In this document: positions 1,937-35,523 of the stretch, in pieces
Layout of the letters: each line of letters opens with the position of its first letter
How positions within the stretch are numbered: position 1 is the stretch's first letter
NCBI GenBank assembly: GCA_034687125.1
Contig: JAQGBZ010000188.1
Coordinates: forward strand, 57,863 to 121,862
From: Neelides folsomi
Lineage: Eukaryota; Arthropoda; Collembola; Neelipleona; Neelidae
Direction: 5' to 3'
DNA length: 64,000 bases
Translations under genes and position numbers: made by a program
The notes under the pieces: generated by a model
What the model was told of the DNA's origin: nothing
Seen by the model: only the letters and a program-made list of their open reading frames with translations
The model's database searches: none

Positions 1937-3324
1937 ATGGCATCTCCTTTGGTGGCCGACGACAAGCACGTCCTCGACGACGAAGCATTGGAAAATCTCT
2001 ATGCTTGGATCGACTCTCTTCCTCTTTCTCGTCCAAAGAGAAATATTGCACGGGACTTCGCAGATGGAGGTATGAACCATCGAAATTGCAAAAAACCATT
2101 AACCTTTTTTAAAAACCTTTTACTTTTAAATTAAAGATAACATGATTAAAAGCATAAAGACATCTTTATTGCCTTTCTTGTGAGTGCAAAAATCGTTAGA
2201 TCACATTTCAAAACTTGCACTAGGTTGATTGTCTCTTTTGGCCCCTTTTAGTGATGGTTGCAGAGATTGTCGCTCATTATCTTCCCAAGATCGTCGAAAT
2301 GCACAATTTCATCTCAGCTAGTGGACTTGCCCAAAAGAGAACAAACTGGAATACTTTGAATAGGAAAGTATTTGCTAAAATGGGTCTTAAAATTTCAGAA
2401 CAAACTATCATGCAACTCGTTGAGGCTCGTCAAGGAGCCATTGAGCAGGTTCAATAATTAAAATAATTTAAATTCATAAAATATTCTTTGAACATTTTTA
2501 CATATAAGATATACGAGATAAAAATATAAATAACGTTTAAATAGAATATAAAATTAAAATACCTTTAATTAAAATTTTAGGTCTTGTGGGATCTTCGTCG
2601 AAGATTGAAAGAACATCCCCAGAGCTTCACGGGCATTCAGTCCAATCGCTGGATTAATAAAAAGTCGGTGGTGAAAATTACTCCAAATTCCTATAAGGAA
2701 CTTGCAAATGAAGAAGCGAAAAGCCGATCTGTGAATCATTTTGGAGAGGAAATCATTTCATCCAGATTCTCAAAGGGACAATTGGCAATCGGACATGTGG
2801 ACGAACGTCTTTCAAGGACTCAATGTCAGCAAAGTCATCTTTTCATCGAAGAATCGGAAACTGCTTGCCCTTCAACTTGTGCTTTTGTCATGCACCCACA
2901 TCCTGAACCACCACGCCAAATTGTTTACAAAGGAGTTAAAATGATCCCAATGGTTGTTTTGGAAAAGAGGGAAGAAGAATGGAAACAGATTGAGTTGGAA
3001 AACAAAGGCTATCGAGCACAAGTAAGCACATTTTTTACAAAAGCTTATCTAAACAAAAGGATTCTAAACTGATATTTTATAAACATTGGATACAAAGTAC
3101 ATCGGATACAAAGCACATGATATTCAGCAAAACATATCCATATAGGATAGATATAAAATATGTTATTATAAGCATGAATATCGTGCCAAAATAATAATTA
3201 AAATAATTAATAGATTAATCGAATGGAGGCTTTGATTGGAGTCAAGAACTGTCGAATTGAAGATCTAAGCCATGAGCTGATTTGCGTGAGAGCGGATTTG
3301 GAGGCTTTCAATTCACACAGATGA
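1937..3324 (+). CDS. SPEF1: Sperm flagellar protein 1 (CLAMP), calponin-homology-like
   Basis: Exons 1937-2069, 2252-2448, 2581-3021 and 3214-3324 join in phase to about 293 residues. The N-terminus 'LENLYAWIDSLPLSRPKRN' followed by 'DFADG' and 'MVAEIVAHYLPKIVEMHNF' is the CH-like DUF1042 domain of SPEF1, a microtubule-bundling protein of cilia, flagella and epithelial cortical arrays. The last exon is too short to be a free-standing reading frame: it encodes 36 residues including 'NCRIEDLSHEL', matching the C-terminal coiled coil of the family ('NVRIDDLTRRL' type). The middle region is low-complexity and poorly conserved. Identity is strong for the CH domain and good for the last exon. Confidence 0.88.
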
Positions 3325-4849
3325 TTTCCCTCCTTGACTCCCATTCATGACGAAAAATGATGAATCGAAACTTTCTCATCCACCTCATGATTTATTAGTA
3401 ATTAGAAAAATGTATTTTTCTCAAAATTCTCAATCTTTACCTCGCAATTCGCATGGTACGATAAATTTGATGCGTAGTAAAAAGCAAATATGCAGTGGAA
3501 ACTGACCAATTTATTCTTTTTTATTCTTTCGGGCCAATTCACCTTTTACATTTACTCTTACTCACAGCAGGATCCTCATTTGAAATTGTTTAATTGATTG
3601 GTCAACTCTGCTAGACGATTTTCCTCGTAAGCAGGAAAAGTATTTTTTACGTTACGTTAGAACGAGAATTAATATCAATACAATACATAGGAGGGGATTT
3701 TATCTGACTTCTTCCAACAAAGACCGAGCGTGTTTATCAGTATTTATTTATATTAGGGGTATGAGTATGAGGAGTATGGAATGCCCTCAGCAGGTCTGTC
3801 AGTATTTTGCCAAGTTTTCCACATTTTTTCATTTTAGGGGCGAACTGGTTGTTCTTTCACAGGTTAATTATTATAGGTGTTTGGACTGCGCAAACCTTTC
3901 CTGAATTAGTAAATAGCCAATTCCTGCTCGCCACCTGAATGAAGATGAGTTGGAGTTGGAATAGATAGGAACAATGGTCCTCCTTTTCCCGTTTTTTTTC
4001 TATTAAACTACAGACTGATCGTAAGTGGAGAGATTATGTGCCAAATATAGGAGTAATAGCGAAAGTGACGCATGTTTACAATGGAACTCTCTTGAAGCTA
4101 TAGGCCATGTGTAGAGTCTCGGAATGTTTTCTTTATCTCTGACATGGTTAAATGAAGATATTGGGAATGTTATGAGACGGAGGTTGTAAAGATCCGTGAT
4201 AAAAACCCAAAATGGAAATGTTTAGCAAAAGCAAATTGTGGCAAAAATTCCGCGTATATAGCGAAGAATGATAGGAAATTATTGTGAGTCCACTTATCAC
4301 CTTCCATTTCCCTTTTCCTTGTCTGCACCAACACATTCTGAATTTAATAATAAAAAGAATGGCGTAAGCAATAATGAGGAAAAGACAGGCTCAATTCCTC
4401 CTCCTGACATATACACGTCTTTCTTCAGAGCTTGTTTCTTCATTTTGACACTTGTCCTATTAAAGCATACTTTTGACCTAAGAAGGTTCAGATTCACCTC
4501 GACACTTCTCTCTTTTCATAAATATTCATCATTGGTTCATACAATTAATTATGACATGTGAAAATGCCGTTTGAGGAATTGAAGCTCCTCTGACCTTAAG
4601 TGACCCTTGATCGGATCAATTATTCCTGACTCCTCACTTTCAAAAGCGAAATCCCCAAATGACAGATTCCATCAACCGAGAAAAAACATTCAATATTAAT
4701 GACGAAGAGAGGTAAATACCCAAAATGTTTACAATTTTCTATCTGGGCCTGAATAGATTTAATTTCCTTTAATTGAATGAAACCTGTATTTGATTGTCGA
4801 TTTTTATTTGTTTTCTCCATAAAATTAATTGTAATTTGATGTGAAATAG
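3325..4849 (+). other. Non-coding interval between SPEF1 and Crk
   Basis: About 1.5 kb without a convincing gene. It should hold the Crk promoter and its first coding exon(s): the first recognisable SH2 exon opens at 4850 with a single base completing a codon, so an upstream exon ending in phase 2 with the start ATG must exist. I could not choose among several short ATG-to-GT candidates. The DNA is AT-rich with no clear repeat. Confidence 0.5.
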
Positions 4850-5711
4850 CTGGTACTTTGGCAGTCTCTCGAGAGAGGAAGCGAATGATCTTCTTCACAT
4901 CCAAGACGTAGGAGTTTTCCTTGTACGAGACTCAACAAGCTCGGAAGATTTGGTTTTATGTATTAGGTAAGCCGAGGAAAAGTTTCCAATCAGCGAATTC
5001 AATCTGTTTATTTACACCCTGGGAATTGCCTTCTGATTCAATTGGCCATTTCAGGGAGAGGAATGAAGTACGGCAGTATCCCATAAGGAAGGTAATTGAG
5101 GAAAACGGAATTCATTTCAAAATACGAGAAGAATTATCTTTTCAAGAAATGCCAGCTCTTCTTGCATTTTACAAACATCATAATTTTGACACAACGTCGC
5201 TCATTCGACCCATTAGCAAAGAAGATCTCGGCCGTCTTCTGCAATTTGTACTTTTGCATAATAATTCCCTTTCAACTTGGCAAGGTTTTAAAAAAATGTT
5301 TTATTCAGCCTCGTGATAGAAAGTCGGATCTCTCGAATCACAAATTGAAAGGGCCAAAAACATCCATTCGCAAATCAGCCCCAGCAGAACTTTCTCTCAC
5401 TGGAACTTCATGTAAAGTGGTGGATGTAAGAGCTTAAATTCTAAAGTGCTAAATGCATAGAGAGAATCACTAATGACATGGTTGGACTTTAGGAACTAAA
5501 TCCATTGTATGTTCGAGTTACGAAGAAATTGAAAGATGCGAGTGAGTACGTGCGAAGAGAGAGTCTTAAAGTGGAAGTTGGCGACGTTATCAAAGTCACC
5601 CACAGGTATCCTAATGGAGAATGGAGAGGAATCCTCAATGGAACTTCAGGATATTTCAAAGCCGCCCACGTGGAAAAAATTGACACGCCAGTAACTCCAG
5701 AAGACCCTTGA
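4850..5711 (+). CDS. Crk: Crk-type SH2-SH3 adaptor lacking the N-terminal SH3 (5' exon not located)
   Basis: Exons 4850-4966, 5055-5247, 5309-5425 and 5493-5711 join in phase. The SH2 domain begins 'WYFGSLSREEANDLL', keeps the phosphotyrosine-binding arginine in 'GVFLVRDS', and ends with the Crk-specific 'MPALLAFYKHHNFDTTSLI'. A 39-residue basic linker follows, then one SH3 fold 'LYVRVTKKLKDASEYVRR' to 'GYFKAAHVEKID' that matches the atypical C-terminal SH3 of Crk, not the proline-binding first SH3. No sequence for SH3N exists in any frame between the two parts. The start codon lies in an unlocated upstream exon. Crk normally links tyrosine-phosphorylated receptors to DOCK180 and C3G through SH3N. 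Confidence 0.82.
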
Positions 5712-7233
5712 ATTCAACTTTATTTAAAATAATTGAATTTTTATACATGGCTATATATTTCATAGAGGTAGCACACTGAATGGCTTTATTTGCATGTAAA
5801 ATTAAATATCTTTCACAAATATTGTATTAGTACGTAGAATGAAGTTCAATGGGTTTATAAGATGCTTCATGTTAGTTTGCAAATATTTGTTTAACTTTAA
5901 CCTCATGTGATGGTTTTGTGGTTTCAAATCCCTTTTTCCAATTATTCACCAGGAATGGTTGTTATATATATTTATTTTATTGATACGTTTAGTTGGTAGT
6001 TATTTTTGTAACTTAATTCAATGCTTGAAGAATATGCAATTTAAATTATACAACTTTTTGCTAAATAAAGAAATATTTCATCATTTCAATTTACTTAAAA
6101 TTCATCTTTGAATCTATTCTAATAAAAACCTATTAAACTATTAAATATATATTTAAATACATTTGGGTTAAAAGGTTAAGTTAAAACTAGGGTCATTTGT
6201 CCATCGTGTAAGGAGTATTTAGGCAAAACGACCCTACTTAAAAATACATTTAAGATATAAGTTGGTATTTAAATTTCAACATAATTCTTAGAACAATGTA
6301 AGAAAATATATAAAAGAAAAGAAGAAGATTAGAAATACAGCAAATACATAATAAAGCAATGCAAGGTTTCGTTCAAAAATAATACCTTGGGAGGATTAAG
6401 ATTTCCAATTATTTGACATTTAATAATACATTGGTATATACTTGTGTTACTTGTATTATGGGTATATGCCATTGTAGAGGATTATAGAGATAGAGATTTT
6501 ACTCATTCATATAATGCAATGCTGTAGGTAAATGTTTTTGATTTTAATCATTTATAATTCTCTTGAGTTATATATCCGGCTAATTACCCTTCTTCCATAA
6601 ATAGCACTTGTAATAATATAAAATATGCACCTGTATATGATATATACAGTGTATATCGATGTTTATCTCTTCCACCATTGTTACGATAAAATACACATGA
6701 GTAGCTTTTAAAGAAGATATATGTCATATCTATATCATATCAGCATTTGACAGTATCAGTAACATAAAAGTTATTGTAAGGGACAGGTAAAGGAATAAGA
6801 TTTATTGGGAGCGAAGCTTGGCTGAATATTTAACCTAAATTTATCACAAACAATTGAGGATTTGAAACGATTGGAAGCAATTCGGCAATAAACGATATTT
6901 TGAAATTGACTAAAATTGATATATTTTATCCATAATCAATTCGTGTTTTAACCACAATTTAACGTTGTATTTTTATAAGGAGTTTAAACGTAATTGACCC
7001 ATTTTCTCATTTTTGCGTCTTATAACCATTTAATCGAATTATACAATTTTCTAAGTTGAGTAAACGGTTCAGAATTACTGACAATTTACCATTTCGTTGT
7101 GATTGAGTGATCACATAAAAACTTCTCATCAAACCAACCCGACCATTAAATGGAGAAAGAAGGACATTTTTTAAAGGTAATTGAGATTCATTTTCAATGA
7201 TTTTTATTATTATTTTCATATTTAAGGAGAACA
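5712..7233. other. AT-rich intergenic region
   Basis: About 1.5 kb of very AT-rich DNA following the Crk stop, with no frame of protein-like composition and no tRNA or repeat structure I can recognise. It should contain the Crk 3' UTR (several AATAAA-like signals near 6062-6070) and the promoter of the next gene. Confidence 0.5.
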
Positions 7234-10909: not shown

Positions 10910-12060
10910 ATCTTTCTTTGATTTCTTATAACTAACGACAATTGCTATAAACAGTGTTATCATCCGTGGTATGATTGATAGATGTGCATAATGCATCATA
11001 ATAAATTTATATATTCAAAATCGAATTTTGACAAATGAGCACCTCGGAGCATTGCTAAAAAGAATAATTTTCTCATTAGGTAAGAAGTTTAAATTAATTT
11101 TTGCGAATTTGACTACCGGGTCCTTCATCCGCCCATTGTGATGGAGCATTAGTAAAAGCTGTTAATCTGGGTGTGAGAGTTTTTATAGAGGCGATTTAAG
11201 CACCAGCTTCAAATTGATGGGTTCTTTCATTAATATTTATAGAAAGGGTAATTAGGAGGGGTTTCATTAATTATGCCTATTTGAGCTGCTAGAAAGCCTC
11301 GCGAGGGCTTCAATGGGAAGAGATAGAAGTCTTATAGAAGATGTTTACCGAAGATTTCTAAATAGAAAGTTCTATTATGCACAACGGCATTAAAATCAAT
11401 ACTGAGGAAGCGCTGTCAATATTTGAGTTTTGAAGAAGGGAAATCTCCCGAGTGTTGAGGACTTGCCATTATGTGTGATTAGCCAGTAGTGGCCAGCAGA
11501 GAATTAGTGAGAATGAATAGGTCCTTTGGCCCACTTTTATTACCGTATCTCACCCACAGCATCCTTTGAGAAGAAGATGATGATGATGCGACGATGACTC
11601 ACAATTCTGGGAATAAAAGACTCTTACTTTATAAGACCCATTTTCACTTGCATTATGTGAGCAATGAGACACGCTCATCATGTAAGTCCCATAATATCCA
11701 TTAAGGCTTAAGGGTTTTATTTTTACTCATCAAAGTCAATGCCTCATCTCATCTCCTTCCCTTCCCTCGAGCAAATGCGAATGACCAAAAGAGTGGCTCA
11801 TTAGAGAATAAAATTCATCATATTTATTTATTATTTATTTATTCTACACACGTCAAACTTAAAATTATAATAAAACTTTTTTAAATAACTCTCTCTGTAT
11901 AGGAGGAATATAAAACATATTTTGTATGGATTGAAGCGTAACATTGTAATATTGTCTTGTTTGAAAAGAGCTGATTGTCTTGAGTTGGTTTGAGATTATA
12001 TTTCGTATGGCTGGACGGCACATGATGAGCATCATTCGGAATAATCAATAATAAAAAAAT
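10910..12060. other. Intergenic region between secreted protein and ZO gene
   Basis: About 1.15 kb between two converging genes. I see no coding frame. It carries a (GAT)n-like run near 11577 and a TTTATTTATT-type low-complexity run near 11822-11845. It holds the 3' UTRs of both flanking genes. Confidence 0.5.
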
Positions 12061-15000
12061 CTAAAAGTGATCAACGTAGAAAGTAAGAGAATTCGATCCT
12101 TCCAGCCGCTCCACATCGAAGTTCTCCCACTCTCCCGCATTCTTCGACTTGAGCGAGAGGTTGTGAGCATTCGCAGTGTCATGAGGCAGAGTGACCTCCA
12201 CAGGAACTTTGAATTTCAGGTCATTGGGGCCGAAGAGGACGACGGGGGACAGGAGCTTTTCCTCTCCCTCCAAAGGCACGACGTCGCCCTTTGGCTCCAC
12301 GACCTTGAAGAAGATTTCCGTTGGTCTCTTCAAAGCTCCTTTGGGAATCCGCAATGAAATTCCGCCATCTGCGAGTCGGCCGCCTTCGGAAGAGAAAACT
12401 CCCCTCGCCTCCCTTTGTGTCATTTGTATGAGAATTTTTTAAGTACATTTTTGTTCATCATCATCCCTGTTCATTTTTTTGTGGTTCAATCGGTCACCTA
12501 AACTTGGGCCTTTGGTAGAGCTCCATTGAACTCGAGTCCCCGAGCCCGGATGAGTTATTGCTGTTGCGGTAGCTCACGAAGGCTGACGACTCTTCGTGAT
12601 GGGCAATCTTCTGCGGTGTGGTGTGGACTTTGATGGGGACGTTCAAATAGTAGTTTCCCTCCCCGGTCGTCTTTGGCTTCGGCGGAGGAACGGGCTTCTG
12701 CTTGGCAGGCAACGGAGCCCTTCCGTTCGACTCGTGATGAGGAACGGACTTGTAAGGAGAGTTGTACATGGGCTGGGCTGTAGAGCGGGTAAATCTGTAA
12801 GGATCCGACTCGCCCCGGCCCAAGATGGAATTCATGGAGTAGTTGAAGGAGTCGCCGTTCATGTAGTTGCTCTCGCCGAACAGCCGCTCCGTCGCCGTCT
12901 TCGGTTTTTTGCTCCGGTCCACTTTGGGGGGATTGGTGAGCGGCGAGTCGGGTGGGGAATGAGCCAATGGAGGATTCTTCCGCGGGGTCTCAGGTGGCTT
13001 CAAACTCGTTACGAATCCGTACTTAGACTCTGGGCTTTTGGCAATTCGGGCTGGGAAAATGTCCTGCCATAAGAAATAAATTCCTCATTATGTTTATATG
13101 CAGAGAGGGGGGAATTATTATTAGGGCTTGATGGGAATCTCCTTCTTGCCTGTTTGTATCCAGTCACGGAATAAGGAGGCGGAGCGGTGTAATTTGGAAG
13201 TTGGACGGAGTCCTGGTCGTTGTGCATTGAGGCCTGCGGGTCTGCTCCGTTCTCGAGGTCGGATTGATCAGGCGAGGAAGCATAGGAATAACGAGAAGAG
13301 GAGACCATGGGGAAGATCAAATCCTCTCCCGCCTCTTCTTGCTGACAATTCACAAATGAGACACATAAACATACATAAAATATAGACCATCAACAAAACC
13401 ACAAAATGTACAAACATTGCAAAAAGCAAACAGCTAATCAATAGAAAGGAACCAACTCCCACTGTATTAAAAAACACCAAAATGAGCCCAAAGTACACAA
13501 ACTTGAGAGGAAATGCAATATGCACCCAAAGGAGTGCCAATTTTGTGTAAAAGAAATTAAATAAAGTACCTTGTTGTTGTTCTCGCTCGCCCACACTGTC
13601 TTGGCTTGTTCTCTGTCGATGGTCTCCCGGAGTTTCCTGTACCAGGAGTCGGGTGAAGGAACGGGGAGAATGGAAGTGAAAAGATGAGAATGGTTGTTCT
13701 CAAGCTTTTCTGCCTCGTCCACTAATTTCCTTGAAGATTTACGAAGAAGGGAATGCCCGCCTTTTCCAAGTACACTGGCCCGAATTTCCTTTGCTACGGA
13801 TTTCTCAACTTTGAGAAAAACGACAATTGGATGGAGTCCATGAAGACTCAGCTTCTCCACCGCCTTTTTAATCAATTAATGAGCTGTCATTAACTTCATG
13901 TCCCAAACTTTTATTACTAATTGCCTTTTAATGGCCCTCATAAACCATAAAAGAGACACTAAACGAGATTTTTGTTACCTGTGGATTAACATCCAGAAGC
14001 GCATGGCGATTTTTGATTTCTTTGATTTCTCGGACCTTCAACACGCGAGATTCCATTGCTACGAATTTATCTCCAAAGTCCCTTAGAAGCCTTTCGCGTC
14101 CAACATCTGCCACTGCTCCAAATAAAACGACAGGTCGAAGGAAGCCAATTCCTTTCAGAGTAACTCGCTCATACTATAAAACCCATATAGCATTAAACTC
14201 TCGTCCCTCGACTTAAAACCTGGTTTAAATGTAGCTACTTGTAAATAATTAAGAAATTACAGCAGGGAATTTAGCCGGAGCATCTTCAATGTCTGATTCA
14301 ACCCTACGCCTTTGACTTCCTCGTCGTCGGCGAAAGATGGAATTTGATCTCTCGGCTTGTTTGTGCTCATTGAAATGAAGAGTGGCCAGTTCCTCGGCCC
14401 TTGCCTTATTAGGAATGATGGCTCTTGTCCCGTTTGGAAGGAGAACTTGCCATGCACCGACGGTCCCGTTCCAAAGAGTGTCCACAACATTGAAGACGGT
14501 TTTGCTCCGGAAAGGCAATTCATTCTTTTTAGGGGACTCATAGTGGAAGTGAGTCATGATGTAGAAGCTATCGCCCAAGTTTTGTCTCATCACGACCTCG
14601 TACTCCTCCGGCCTGAATTCCACTCGTAGTTCAATCTGGGAGATGGAAAGGAGGAGGAGCACGGCTTCCTCCCTCGTCGACCCGCCCAAGTCGACATGGT
14701 TGACCTTTAGGATCTTGTCTCCCGGCTGCAACCCTTGAGCCTACAATTAAATGGTGATGAGGGGCCGAGCTTTGAAGGAGTGTTTTGGAATAGTGGGTCG
14801 GCCTAGAGCCATTCAACATAATTTGTGCATGGTAATGAGACAATGATTGCAAGTCGTATACCTCGGCAGGTGAGCCTGGTTGAATAGCAGCCACAAAGAT
14901 CCCGACTTCGTTGCCTCCTGCAAAGGGAAACCAAATTTTGCAAAGCGAATTGAAATGACTCAATAATGAGTTCTTTTGGTGGTCGTTTAGGTGTGATAAT

Positions 15001-31804: not shown

Positions 31805-34800
31805 ATGTGTGCCCTGTGGAACCGAGTCCAGACCCTTCCGGCCCCCGCCGTCCACAAGGTCCACTCTTTGTACGGGGACCACTTTCCCATCGAGGTCCGC
31901 TACGTCCTTGCAGACTGGATCGAACAACAACTGAGGTTTAATAATTTTTAATAATTTAATATAAGTGTAAAATGGGTAATAAATGTCTTATTAATCTAGT
32001 GGGGATGTGGACCCCGACAATCCCGTGTATGAGAGCAACGTGTCGTCGTTTGTGGGGGCCCTGATTGGGGAACTGGAGATGAAGGCCAATGCCATGGTGG
32101 AGGATCCCTATCTCATAAGGGTCAAGCTCTTGCAGGCTGCCGGGAGCTTTCGGGTAAATTACAACTCTAGTTGGCATCATATGACTCATCGGCGATATTT
32201 AAACTCTTTTAACCTCATTTTTGCATACTTATAATTTAAATGTTTAAATACTCAAAGAGTATCAAGTGACAATTATTATTTATAGTTTTGTATTAGCCAT
32301 TAAATAAACTGAATGTGTAGCAAATGTATGGGGCCGAACCGCACCGAATGTTTCGGTTCCTCCGACATGCCCTGAGCGTGGAGTCTGCATTGGTGGAGCA
32401 GGCCGAGAGCGGTGCTCCCAATGAGTTGGGAGCAACTTCGGATGTGGCAGAAGCCTTGAGGGTCCTAAAAACCCGCACATTGGAAACTGCGGACATTCTG
32501 AGGCGGATGGAGCAGGAACAAGAGGCCTTTGCTTTGAAATGCCACGAGAGACAAAAGCTGGAGCAACTCTTGCAGATTCACCGGCTCCAAAACAATCCCC
32601 CGACCATTCAATCGGCCCTTGTGGAGAAAAACTGCGTCCAATCCAGGGACAGACTCGAGTTTGAATTGAAAACGAGGGTACCCACCAAATTAATTTAAAA
32701 AACCAACAGGGTTTTACAATTAATTGTATTTGATTGACAGATCACGGCCCTTGTGGGTTTAAAAGGGGAGCTGGAGGAAAAGATTTCCGTGACGGTTGGG
32801 GAGCTTGCGGGTCTGCAGGGTAAAGTTTTAGATGAGGAGCTGACCAGGTGGAAGCGGGAACAACAACTGGCCGGGAACGGGGCTCCCCTAACCAACACGT
32901 TGGACACCCTCCAGGGTTGGTGCGAAGACTTGGCCGAGCTCATTTGGCACAATCGCCATCAACTCAAAGAGGCCGATCGGTTGAAAACTCTTTTGGCCCA
33001 GCCGGCCAACCAACATGACATTCACAGACTCCCTGCACTACAAGTAAACAATTCAATTGCAAGCTTATTGTTTTTAAATTTAAATCAATACATGTTTTAT
33101 TCCAAACAACAGTTTTTTCAATAATAATTTTAATTGATTTTTTTAAAAGTTTTGATCTTTCTCCTAAATAATGAAATTAATTTCAACCTTTAGTTTCCTA
33201 TCATTTCCAATGACAATTTAATTGTAGAGAAAGTCAAGCAACTTGTTTTAAATTTAAGCATTGATTTGGATAGGAGAAAGTAACGCAGCTTTTGAGTTCT
33301 TTGGTGACGTCGACGTTTATTGTCGAGAAGCAACCACCGCAGGTGATGAAGACAAACACGCGCTTCACGGCGACAGTTCGATTATTAGTGGGCGGGAGAT
33401 TGAACGTTCACATGACGCCGCCGCAGGTTTGGACTTAAATTTAACTAACCAGCAATGGGCCCGTCTCCCGACGGGTTGTTAGCATTAAAAACTATTAAAT
33501 GGTACATCTATCTAGGATTTCCAACTTTAAAATAATAACAATATACTATGCACTTTTAATAAGTATAAGATTTAATAGTTTTTGATGGAGTTAACCCGTC
33601 GGGAGACGGGCCCATTGCTGGTCTTAAAGCTAGTTATAGAATCTATATATAATCTAAATGTTTCATAAATTTCCATAATCAATCGACTTTTAGCTCTTAC
33701 TACAGTGTGGGCTGAATTAAGAATACCAACCCGACAGGAATCTTTCCGTGATTTCAATGACTGTAGGAATTTTTTTAATTAAACCGATCGAAACCTTTAA
33801 AAATCTTAACTATGACCCAGAGCTGGGCATTTGCTACCCGATTCGGTTCCGATTCAATTATCTTATCTGGACTAAAATCGGACCTTATGTTTCTAGCCTA
33901 TTTGTCGACCGAGTTCTGATTGGTTAAAAAAAGGGCCTGTCATGTTTTATAAGGAAAGATTCCGGTCAGATTGGCATTTAGAATTGAGCCTCCGCTTGAG
34001 CAGTTTTCTCTAAAAGTCGGTGAACAACTGAGAGACGCCGATATTTTATTATATGATTATTTATTTAAAAAGGTTAAAGTTGCTATAATCAGCGAAAGCC
34101 AAGCCAACGCGCTATTGAGAAACGACAAGGAAAAACCAACGGACACCTCGGGGGAGATTTTGAATAATACCGGGACGATGGAATACCACCAGGGGACCAG
34201 ACATCTCTCGGTTCACTTTCGAAACATGCAACTGAAGAGGATCAAGAGGGCGGAAAAGAAAGGGACCGAGTCCGTGATGGACGAAAAGTTCTGTCTCCAC
34301 TTTCAGTGCCAATTCACTGTGGGGGAGAAAGAGTTGATTTTCAAAATATGGACTTTAAGCCTCCCAGTAGTGGTCATTGTCCATGGGAATCAGGAACCCC
34401 ATGCATGGGCCACAGTCACTTGGGACAATGCCTTTGGGGAACCGGGGAGGATGCCGTTCCACGTACCCGAAAGAGTCCCCTGGTTCAGAGTGGCAAATGC
34501 ATTGAATGTCAAATTCAAATCAATGACCGGCAGGGCCCTCACTGAAGATAACTTGAGGTTCTTGGGGGAAAAGGCCTTTAGATCCTCCCACCCAGGGTCT
34601 GAGTTAAGTTGGTCCCAGTTTTGCAAGGAACCCCTACCAGACCGGAACTTTACCTTTTGGGAATGGTTCTACGCCATCATGAAGCTGACAAGGGAGCACT
34701 TGAGGGGACCATGGGTGGATGGGTCCATCGTGGGGTTTGTGGGACGTCAACAGGCTGAGGATCTCTTGGCCCATCGCCCAAATGGGACTTTCCTCTTGAG

Positions 34801-35523
34801 GTTCTCCGACTCGGAACTGGGAGGAATCACGATCGCTTGGACCCACCAGGACCATCAGGTTTTCTCCATCGCCCCCTTCGCATCCAAAGACCTTTCCACG
34901 CGGAGTCTTCCTGACCGGGTCAACGACCTCAACACCTTGGCCTTTTTGTTCCCCGACGTTCCAAAGGCCGTGGCGTTCTCAAAATACTACACGCCCCAGC
35001 AAGGTTTAAACTTTAAATGAAATTATTTAATTTTAACTAAAGGTTAAATTTAATTTAATTAGAAATGCCGCCATCTGCACGTGGCTATGTGAGACCTCAA
35101 CTCATCACGCACATTCCCGGGTAAATTCAAATTAAAGATTTTTAAATTGAAAATAATTTTAAATTTGAAAAGACTCGCAGAAGTTGACGTCGTCGCCGCC
35201 AGTCCGAGTCATTTCGTTAATTCTCCCTCCGACTACGCCCAGGAAAACTCGCAAGGGTAAAAAACCTCCAAAAAAACACGAACGCTTTATTTTAAATTTA
35301 ACCAAAACATTCCGCTGAATAAAATTTGGTCAAATCCAAATTGGCAAATCTTTTACTAACATCAAAGAGTCTTGTGACTATTCACAATCTTCTTCGCAGC
35401 ATCCTCGAGTCCTTTGCTGAGCACTTTGAGGACTTTGACATCAACTTTGACTTTGATGCGGGGGACCCTGTGGCCAACTTTTTCCAGCCACCTCAATCAC
35501 AACAGCCACCATCAAACATTTAA
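31805..35523 (+). CDS. STAT5-type signal transducer and activator of transcription
   Basis: Exons 31805-31935, 32000-32153, 32321-32677, 32741-33043, about 33274-33426, 34073 onward, and three short C-terminal exons to 35523. N-domain '[20 protein letters not shown]'; coiled coil ending '[20 protein letters not shown]'; DNA-binding domain '[20 protein letters not shown]', '[15 protein letters not shown]', '[20 protein letters not shown]', '[16 protein letters not shown]', '[20 protein letters not shown]'; linker; SH2 with '[19 protein letters not shown]'; and the phosphotyrosine '[16 protein letters not shown]', matching STAT5 Tyr694. It is the JAK-activated transcription factor. The acidic tail '[16 protein letters not shown]' is a plausible activation domain. 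Intron 33427-34072 is enlarged by a repeat. Confidence 0.95.
33443..33622. mobile_element. Inverted-repeat (MITE-like) element inside a STAT intron
   Basis: About 50-bp terminal inverted repeats: the left arm starts ACCAGCAATGGGCCCGTCTC near 33448 and continues into TTAAAAACTATTAAAT (to about 33500); the right arm (33570-33622) is its near-perfect reverse complement, ending CCCATTGCTGGTC. TTAA flanks both ends, a possible target duplication. No coding capacity in the ~75-bp centre. A diverged left-arm copy occurs at about 39143-39220. Probably a non-autonomous DNA transposon. Confidence 0.8.

Follow-up and report, generated by a model that had tools for sequence, protein, structure and literature searches.

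A Crk-type gene without an N-terminal SH3 exon in Neelides folsomi: a candidate competitor of canonical Crk

The 64,000-nucleotide stretch of the Neelides folsomi genome analyzed here (hereafter the window; positions 57863-121862 of contig C188, in an assembly of 75.1 Mb and 840 contigs) carries on its plus strand a Crk-type gene of five exons. Its product of 232 amino acids (aa), encoded without internal stops, has an SH2 domain and a C-terminal SH3 domain (SH3C) and is without the N-terminal SH3 domain (SH3N) of Crk. A canonical Crk with all three domains is found on a second contig, C471. The window gene is very probably a diverged Crk duplicate without the SH3N exon. From its sequence we consider that the window copy may be a Crk-derived SH2 competitor, with a probability of roughly 0.5 to 0.6. 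Judged by its anatomy, the window protein is a Crk by descent and, by the defining SH3N feature, would not be a working Crk adaptor.

Gene structure and domains of the window copy

The five-exon model is a prediction from the sequence, guided by the structure of the canonical Crk gene. Its features, in window positions, are as follows (nt, nucleotides).

4659-4711, + strand: exon 1, with the start codon; MTDSINREKTFNINDEE; phase-2 donor GTAAAT; position and phase as in canonical exon 1
4850-4966, + strand: exon 2, first half of SH2 including the phosphotyrosine-binding FLVRDS; phase 2 on both sides; introns placed as in canonical Crk
5055-5247, + strand: exon 3, which completes SH2 and runs on for 12 residues past the RP motif; phase-0 donor GTACTT
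5248-5308, + strand: intron 3, 61 nt, in the place of canonical intron 3, the 129-nt SH3N exon and intron 4
5309-5425, + strand: exon 4, basic linker of 39 residues; phase 0 on both sides
5426-5492, + strand: intron between exons 4 and 5, 67 nt, phase 0; acceptor in the same alignment column as the canonical one
5493-5711, + strand: exon 5, the entire SH3C, stop codon included
6064-6069, + strand: AATAAA, a possible polyadenylation signal read off the sequence

All four introns are GT-AG, with phases of 2, 2, 0 and 0, and the ATG of exon 1 is the first one downstream of an in-frame stop codon. The exon 3 donor GTACTT differs from the other donors of the gene (by eye, unscored). The linker contains nine K/R and four D/E in its 39 residues. 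In the preliminary description of this DNA the range given was 4850-5711; the gene does lie there, but the range is incomplete, since exon 1 falls outside it. A 13-nt inverted repeat (92%) at 5267-5353 pairs intron 3 with exon 4 across the 3' splice site, which could be due to chance.

In Pfam, the window copy matched SH2 (PF00017, E=7.5e-13) at residues 19-96 and SH3_2 (PF07653, E=8e-8) at residues 166-223. Weaker matches to SH3_9 and SH3_1 overlap the same C-terminal stretch and therefore do not indicate a second SH3. The top PDB matches were Crk-like protein and CRK, which we take to be the human proteins, and the terminal SH3 of the copy paired with their SH3C. Exon 5 alone, predicted with AlphaFold2 without an alignment, gave a mean pLDDT of 55.5, too low to be informative. 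Among the features of the Crk/crka family, the N-terminal SH2 and the non-canonical SH3C at the C-terminus are kept; an SH3N binding PxxPxK/R was found neither in the window gene nor on its contig.

No SH3 sequence was seen in the 61-nt and 67-nt introns when three forward frames were read by eye. A genome search with SH3_1 (E<=0.01) gave 44 matches, listed from 60 candidates, of which none was on the 121.9-kb contig C188; the canonical SH3N exon was recovered among the 44. The same search also missed the diverged SH3C of the window copy itself, so that a strongly diverged SH3N could escape it, and the silence on C188 is good evidence but not absolute. With the canonical Crk protein as the query (E<=1), C188 gave SH2 matches and no SH3N match. 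Within the sensitivity of these searches, a hidden SH3N exon was thus not found in the introns or elsewhere on C188. The initial observation of an SH2 and a C-terminal SH3 without SH3N is borne out by Pfam, the PDB matches and the SH3_1 search of the contig, and so is the statement that 5248-5492 has no room for an SH3N exon, the flanking introns being of 61 and 67 nt and in phase 0.

Canonical Crk in the same assembly

When the assembly was searched with the window protein, its own gene came first, followed by C471 with 55% and 48% identity over two SH2 exons (E ~2e-6). Close behind were single SH2 stretches on contigs C6 (39%) and C88 (36%). The gene on C471 was modelled as a canonical Crk of seven exons and 291 residues, SH2-SH3N-SH3C, which aligns with CRK and CRKL across all three domains. 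As a query against the assembly (E<=1), this protein gave 29 matches, six on C471, two on the window copy and the others weaker. In this search, which scores the best candidates only and could miss a remote third copy, no third locus with the Crk domain order was found at comparable scores; on C88 an SH3 and an SH2 share one frame, their order being reversed with respect to Crk.

The genome therefore holds a second Crk with SH3N, the gene on C471, and the window copy as the sole Crk is ruled out. Of two possibilities raised in the preliminary description, that of a second Crk copy is supported by this complete gene in the same assembly, and that of an only Crk whose coupling must differ fails for the assembly. 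The SH3C of the canonical gene (L041:4718-5116) has a six-residue insert, GELILEGGVEGRKGHF, with respect to GECNGKRGHF of CRK, beside an extra intron; the window copy has neither.

Origin of the copy and loss of the SH3N exon

Exon 3 of canonical Crk encodes the first strand of SH3N. The remainder of the domain has an exon of its own, of 129 nt and in phase 0 at either end, and the exon directly after it encodes a linker of 32 residues. The two genes agree in position and phase at introns 1 and 2 and at the intron that precedes SH3C. The window copy therefore arose at the DNA level and not from a processed transcript, and a retrocopy origin is ruled out by the retained introns. As for a tandem or large segmental duplication, no neighbour family in common was found among ten open reading frames (ORFs), seven on C188 and three on C471, which is a small sample.

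Since the SH3N exon is in phase 0 on both sides, its removal preserves the frame. Past the RP motif, exon 3 encodes 12 residues in the window copy versus 17 in canonical Crk, and these 12 residues may be what is left of the first strand of SH3N. The likeliest event would be a deletion that began within exon 3, removed the SH3N exon and ended in the intron beyond it, so that parts of the two introns and the last codons of exon 3 were lost as well; a nearby GT would then have served as the new donor of exon 3. The shape of exon 3, with its short end and different-looking donor, suggests that the deletion reached into this exon.

The linker of the copy was compared with two canonical exons. Its score against the canonical linker exon was reached by 58 of 5000 shuffles at gap costs of 6/1 and by 1289 of 5000 at 11/1. 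Against the canonical SH3N exon, the score was below the shuffle mean (reached by 4846 and 4840 of 5000 shuffles). A linker derived from the SH3N exon is ruled out by this below-average score and by the better score of the canonical linker exon. The comparison points, weakly, to the linker being probably the old linker exon retained rather than a replacement. In the earlier statement that SH3N is replaced by a 39-residue basic linker, the linker and the absence of SH3N stand; the word "replaced" is probably wrong, because the corresponding place in canonical Crk is also taken by a linker exon and it is the separate phase-0/0 SH3N exon that is missing.

Coding constraint

In an alignment of 160 codons from SH2 and SH3C, the window copy and canonical Crk are identical in 56% of bases (a raw nucleotide difference of ~44%) and 47% of residues (0.469). 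Identity at the three codon positions is 0.56, 0.71 and 0.42; dN is 0.48, and dS, at 3.8, is saturated. In 2000 runs of a neutral simulation that put the whole of the observed divergence on one branch, the residue identity was 0.266 on average and 0.344 at most. The simulated sequences had 8.9 stops on average and none of the 2000 was free of stops, versus no stops in the window copy. This shows a long coding constraint since the split, spread over both branches, with which a recent loss of function is compatible.

The constraint is stronger on the SH2 of the copy than on its SH3C. Where canonical Crk, CRK and CRKL all have the same residue, the copy has it too at 36 of 51 sites in SH2 and at 12 of 30 in SH3C (Fisher p=0.0099). 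Of the residues common to CRK and CRKL, 40/78 in SH2 and 19/43 in SH3C are present in the copy, versus 50/78 and 30/43 in canonical Crk. Pairwise matches in SH2 and SH3C are 53/99 and 22/61 between the copy and canonical Crk, 46/99 and 22/59 between the copy and CRK, and 58/100 and 39/62 between canonical Crk and CRK. A known role of SH3C, as described in PMC2689226, is the regulation of SH3N. Relaxation of SH3C is therefore expected after the loss of SH3N, and this domain would have been partly freed from constraint once SH3N was gone.

Binding surfaces and candidate partners

SH2 positions in the residue alignment are designated alphaA2, betaB5 and betaD4. Both phosphate-binding arginines are retained, R26 and R44 of the copy aligning with R20 and R38 of CRK. 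The site of CRK S40 is gapped in one alignment; by eye and in a second alignment, the copy reads RDS like the others. The pocket for the proline at +3 consists of Y65, I80, Y96 and F101 in the copy, so that three of the residues Y, I, Y and L are identical and the fourth is changed from L to F. The binding residues of the Crk SH2 were taken from section 6 of PMC5043372.

An internal YxxP was found in neither the window copy nor canonical Crk, and a closed form of the vertebrate type is thus not expected in either. An autoinhibitory site of this kind is reported for vertebrates, Ciona and cnidarians in PMC5043372.

A Cas homologue was found in the genome as a CAS_C match on contig C218 (E=4.5e-22). 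About 1 kb upstream of it lies a frame of 527 residues with six YxxP, five of them YDVP in the part that was read, and we infer that the two belong to one gene. There are three DOCK-C2 loci in the genome. Canonical Crk thus appears to have likely targets in this genome and, possibly, a class of effectors.

Predicted function and alternative explanations

Crk links phosphotyrosine to Rac and Rap via SH3N, according to PMC5043372. In the mechanism proposed here, the SH2 of the window copy would still dock on phosphorylated YxxP, for instance in the Cas homologue. Without SH3N, the copy could not recruit DOCK or C3G; it would compete with canonical Crk for the sites and thereby lower the canonical output. 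Given the YDVP sites of the Cas homologue and an SH2 without SH3N, competition for phosphorylated YDVP would be expected. The earlier suggestion of a natural dominant negative agrees with the anatomy, in which SH2 is present and SH3N is not, and with the YDVP repeats of the Cas homologue; the antagonist function is predicted from these features. More tentatively, and at somewhat less than even odds, the copy could be an antagonist of Crk with a gene of its own, dedicated to this role and maintained by selection: a brake made by one frame-neutral exon loss, with SH3C freed from its regulatory task and SH2 still under selection.

Several facts weigh against this account of the copy. In its SH2, Gln (Q64) takes the place of the conserved His that precedes the pocket Tyr, and the Gly of the EF loop, which is described as highly conserved elsewhere (PMC5043372), is Arg (R81), with a one-residue insertion nearby. 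These changes could weaken or redirect the SH2. The SH3C is diverged yet intact; Crk SH3C is reported to bind Crm1 (PMC2689226), and the SH3C of CrkL contributes to C3G activation alongside SH3N, as described in PMC9896810. The homology of the linker is not significant at the standard gap costs of 11/1 (1289/5000 shuffles). Finally, sequence lost between introns 3 and 4 in the assembly would look much the same, since the joined intron would keep good ends like those found here.

The SH3C and the linker could instead make the window copy a positive adaptor with new wiring, in which phosphotyrosine would still be recognized by SH2 and a new partner (a protein, a membrane lipid or a kinase site) would be served by the diverged SH3C or by the basic linker. 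The SH3C is intact and recognizable by PF07653 at 8e-8, the linker is basic, and Crk SH3C is reported to bind Crm1. We nevertheless regard this explanation as unlikely, since the shared FPFTH reads FKAAH in the copy, and SH3C is the less conserved domain.

Alternative splicing might add an SH2-only form, by retention of intron 3, or a linkerless SH2-SH3C form, by skipping of exon 4, and so produce several competitors. Read-through from exon 3 stays open until a stop at 5314-5316, and exon 4 is a phase-0/0 cassette. This addition, which is compatible with the other readings, seems rather improbable.

The copy might also be a decaying duplicate that has no present function and is still unbroken. 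It has lost a domain and, as the sites shared by CRK and CRKL show, has diverged faster than canonical Crk. However, it has 232 codons without a stop and GT-AG introns despite the nucleotide difference of ~44%, its identity is far over that of the neutral simulation, and the uneven constraint has spared SH2. Decay is therefore quite improbable, a very recent loss of function being still compatible with these data.

That the assembly has dropped about 200 bases between introns 3 and 4 from a gene that really has an SH3N exon is very improbable despite the good ends of the fused intron, because the window contains no N and because a clean intron-to-intron loss alone would not give an exon 3 that is shorter than the canonical one and different in sequence up to a different donor. 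A repeat scan at the junction found no direct repeats in intron 3, which is neutral on this point because a collapsed repeat leaves a single copy.

If the window copy is a Crk-derived SH2 competitor, the loss of a single phase-0/0 exon would be enough to make a likely competitor out of an adaptor. The SH3C of the copy evolves without SH3N and offers a direct test of any job of SH3C that is independent of SH3N.

Surroundings of the gene in the window

Upstream of the Crk copy, a 163-residue open frame at 2581-3069 had no Pfam match at E<=0.001. The GC content steps up at 11751-12500, from ~0.29-0.36 before 12 kb to ~0.39-0.50 from there to the end of the window. Among the first 40 genome loci compared, GC was 0.28-0.43, and only the STAT locus of the window exceeded 0.41. 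The step may be a compositional domain or a misjoin. A chimeric contig was considered on account of the step; part of the ORF beyond it recurs on other contigs, which favours one genome but is no proof.

This ORF, at 33953-35020, matches the STAT DNA-binding, linker and SH2 domains. Further STAT-like matches lie on contigs C173, C397, C527, C570 and C275, which suggests that STAT is not a single gene in the genome. The first 34-43 residues of the ORF (33953-34081) recur at 56-89% identity on C13, C395, C73, C268, C62, C29 and C12, where no further part of STAT is matched, and perhaps represent a repeated element beside or inside the STAT gene.

Comparison with known systems

In our limited search of the open-licence literature, neither a natural Crk without SH3N nor an arthropod Crk duplication was found. 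The closest relatives of the window copy are the members of the Crk/crka family (CRK, CRKL, Drosophila Crk and CED-2) and the Crk on C471, which have homologous SH2 and SH3C in the same order and share the arginines with it. Unlike these proteins, the copy is without SH3N, and its SH3C is strongly diverged. In an alignment of 28 sequences from 19 species, the reading frame is described as perfectly conserved in SH2 and SH3n, and an intron near the start of SH3C as conserved in most species (both in PMC5043372). This intron is present in the copy (5426-5492, phase 0).

Two shortened or damaged Crk forms resemble the copy in part. CrkI (human CRK isoform b) likewise consists of SH2 and one SH3, but it keeps SH3N and is without SH3C, so that the loss is opposite to that in the window copy; CrkI is described as more transforming than CrkII in PMC2689226. 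In the genome of Monosiga brevicollis, crka2 likewise stands beside another Crk gene and has one damaged SH3, but it is SH3c that is not intact there, not SH3n, the converse of the window copy (as presented in PMC5043372).

Grb3-3, a deletion splice variant of Grb2, is likewise a domain-deleted adaptor, and is reported to compete with the full-length form (PMC9519967). As in Grb3-3, one binding surface appears to be kept in the window copy and the other to be gone. Grb3-3, however, is made from the same gene by splicing and does not bind receptor tyrosine kinases (RTK), while Sos binding is kept; in the window copy, a separate gene, it is the effector-binding SH3 that is lost. As a long-kept natural Crk without SH3N, the window copy would be the evolved counterpart of laboratory dominant negatives.
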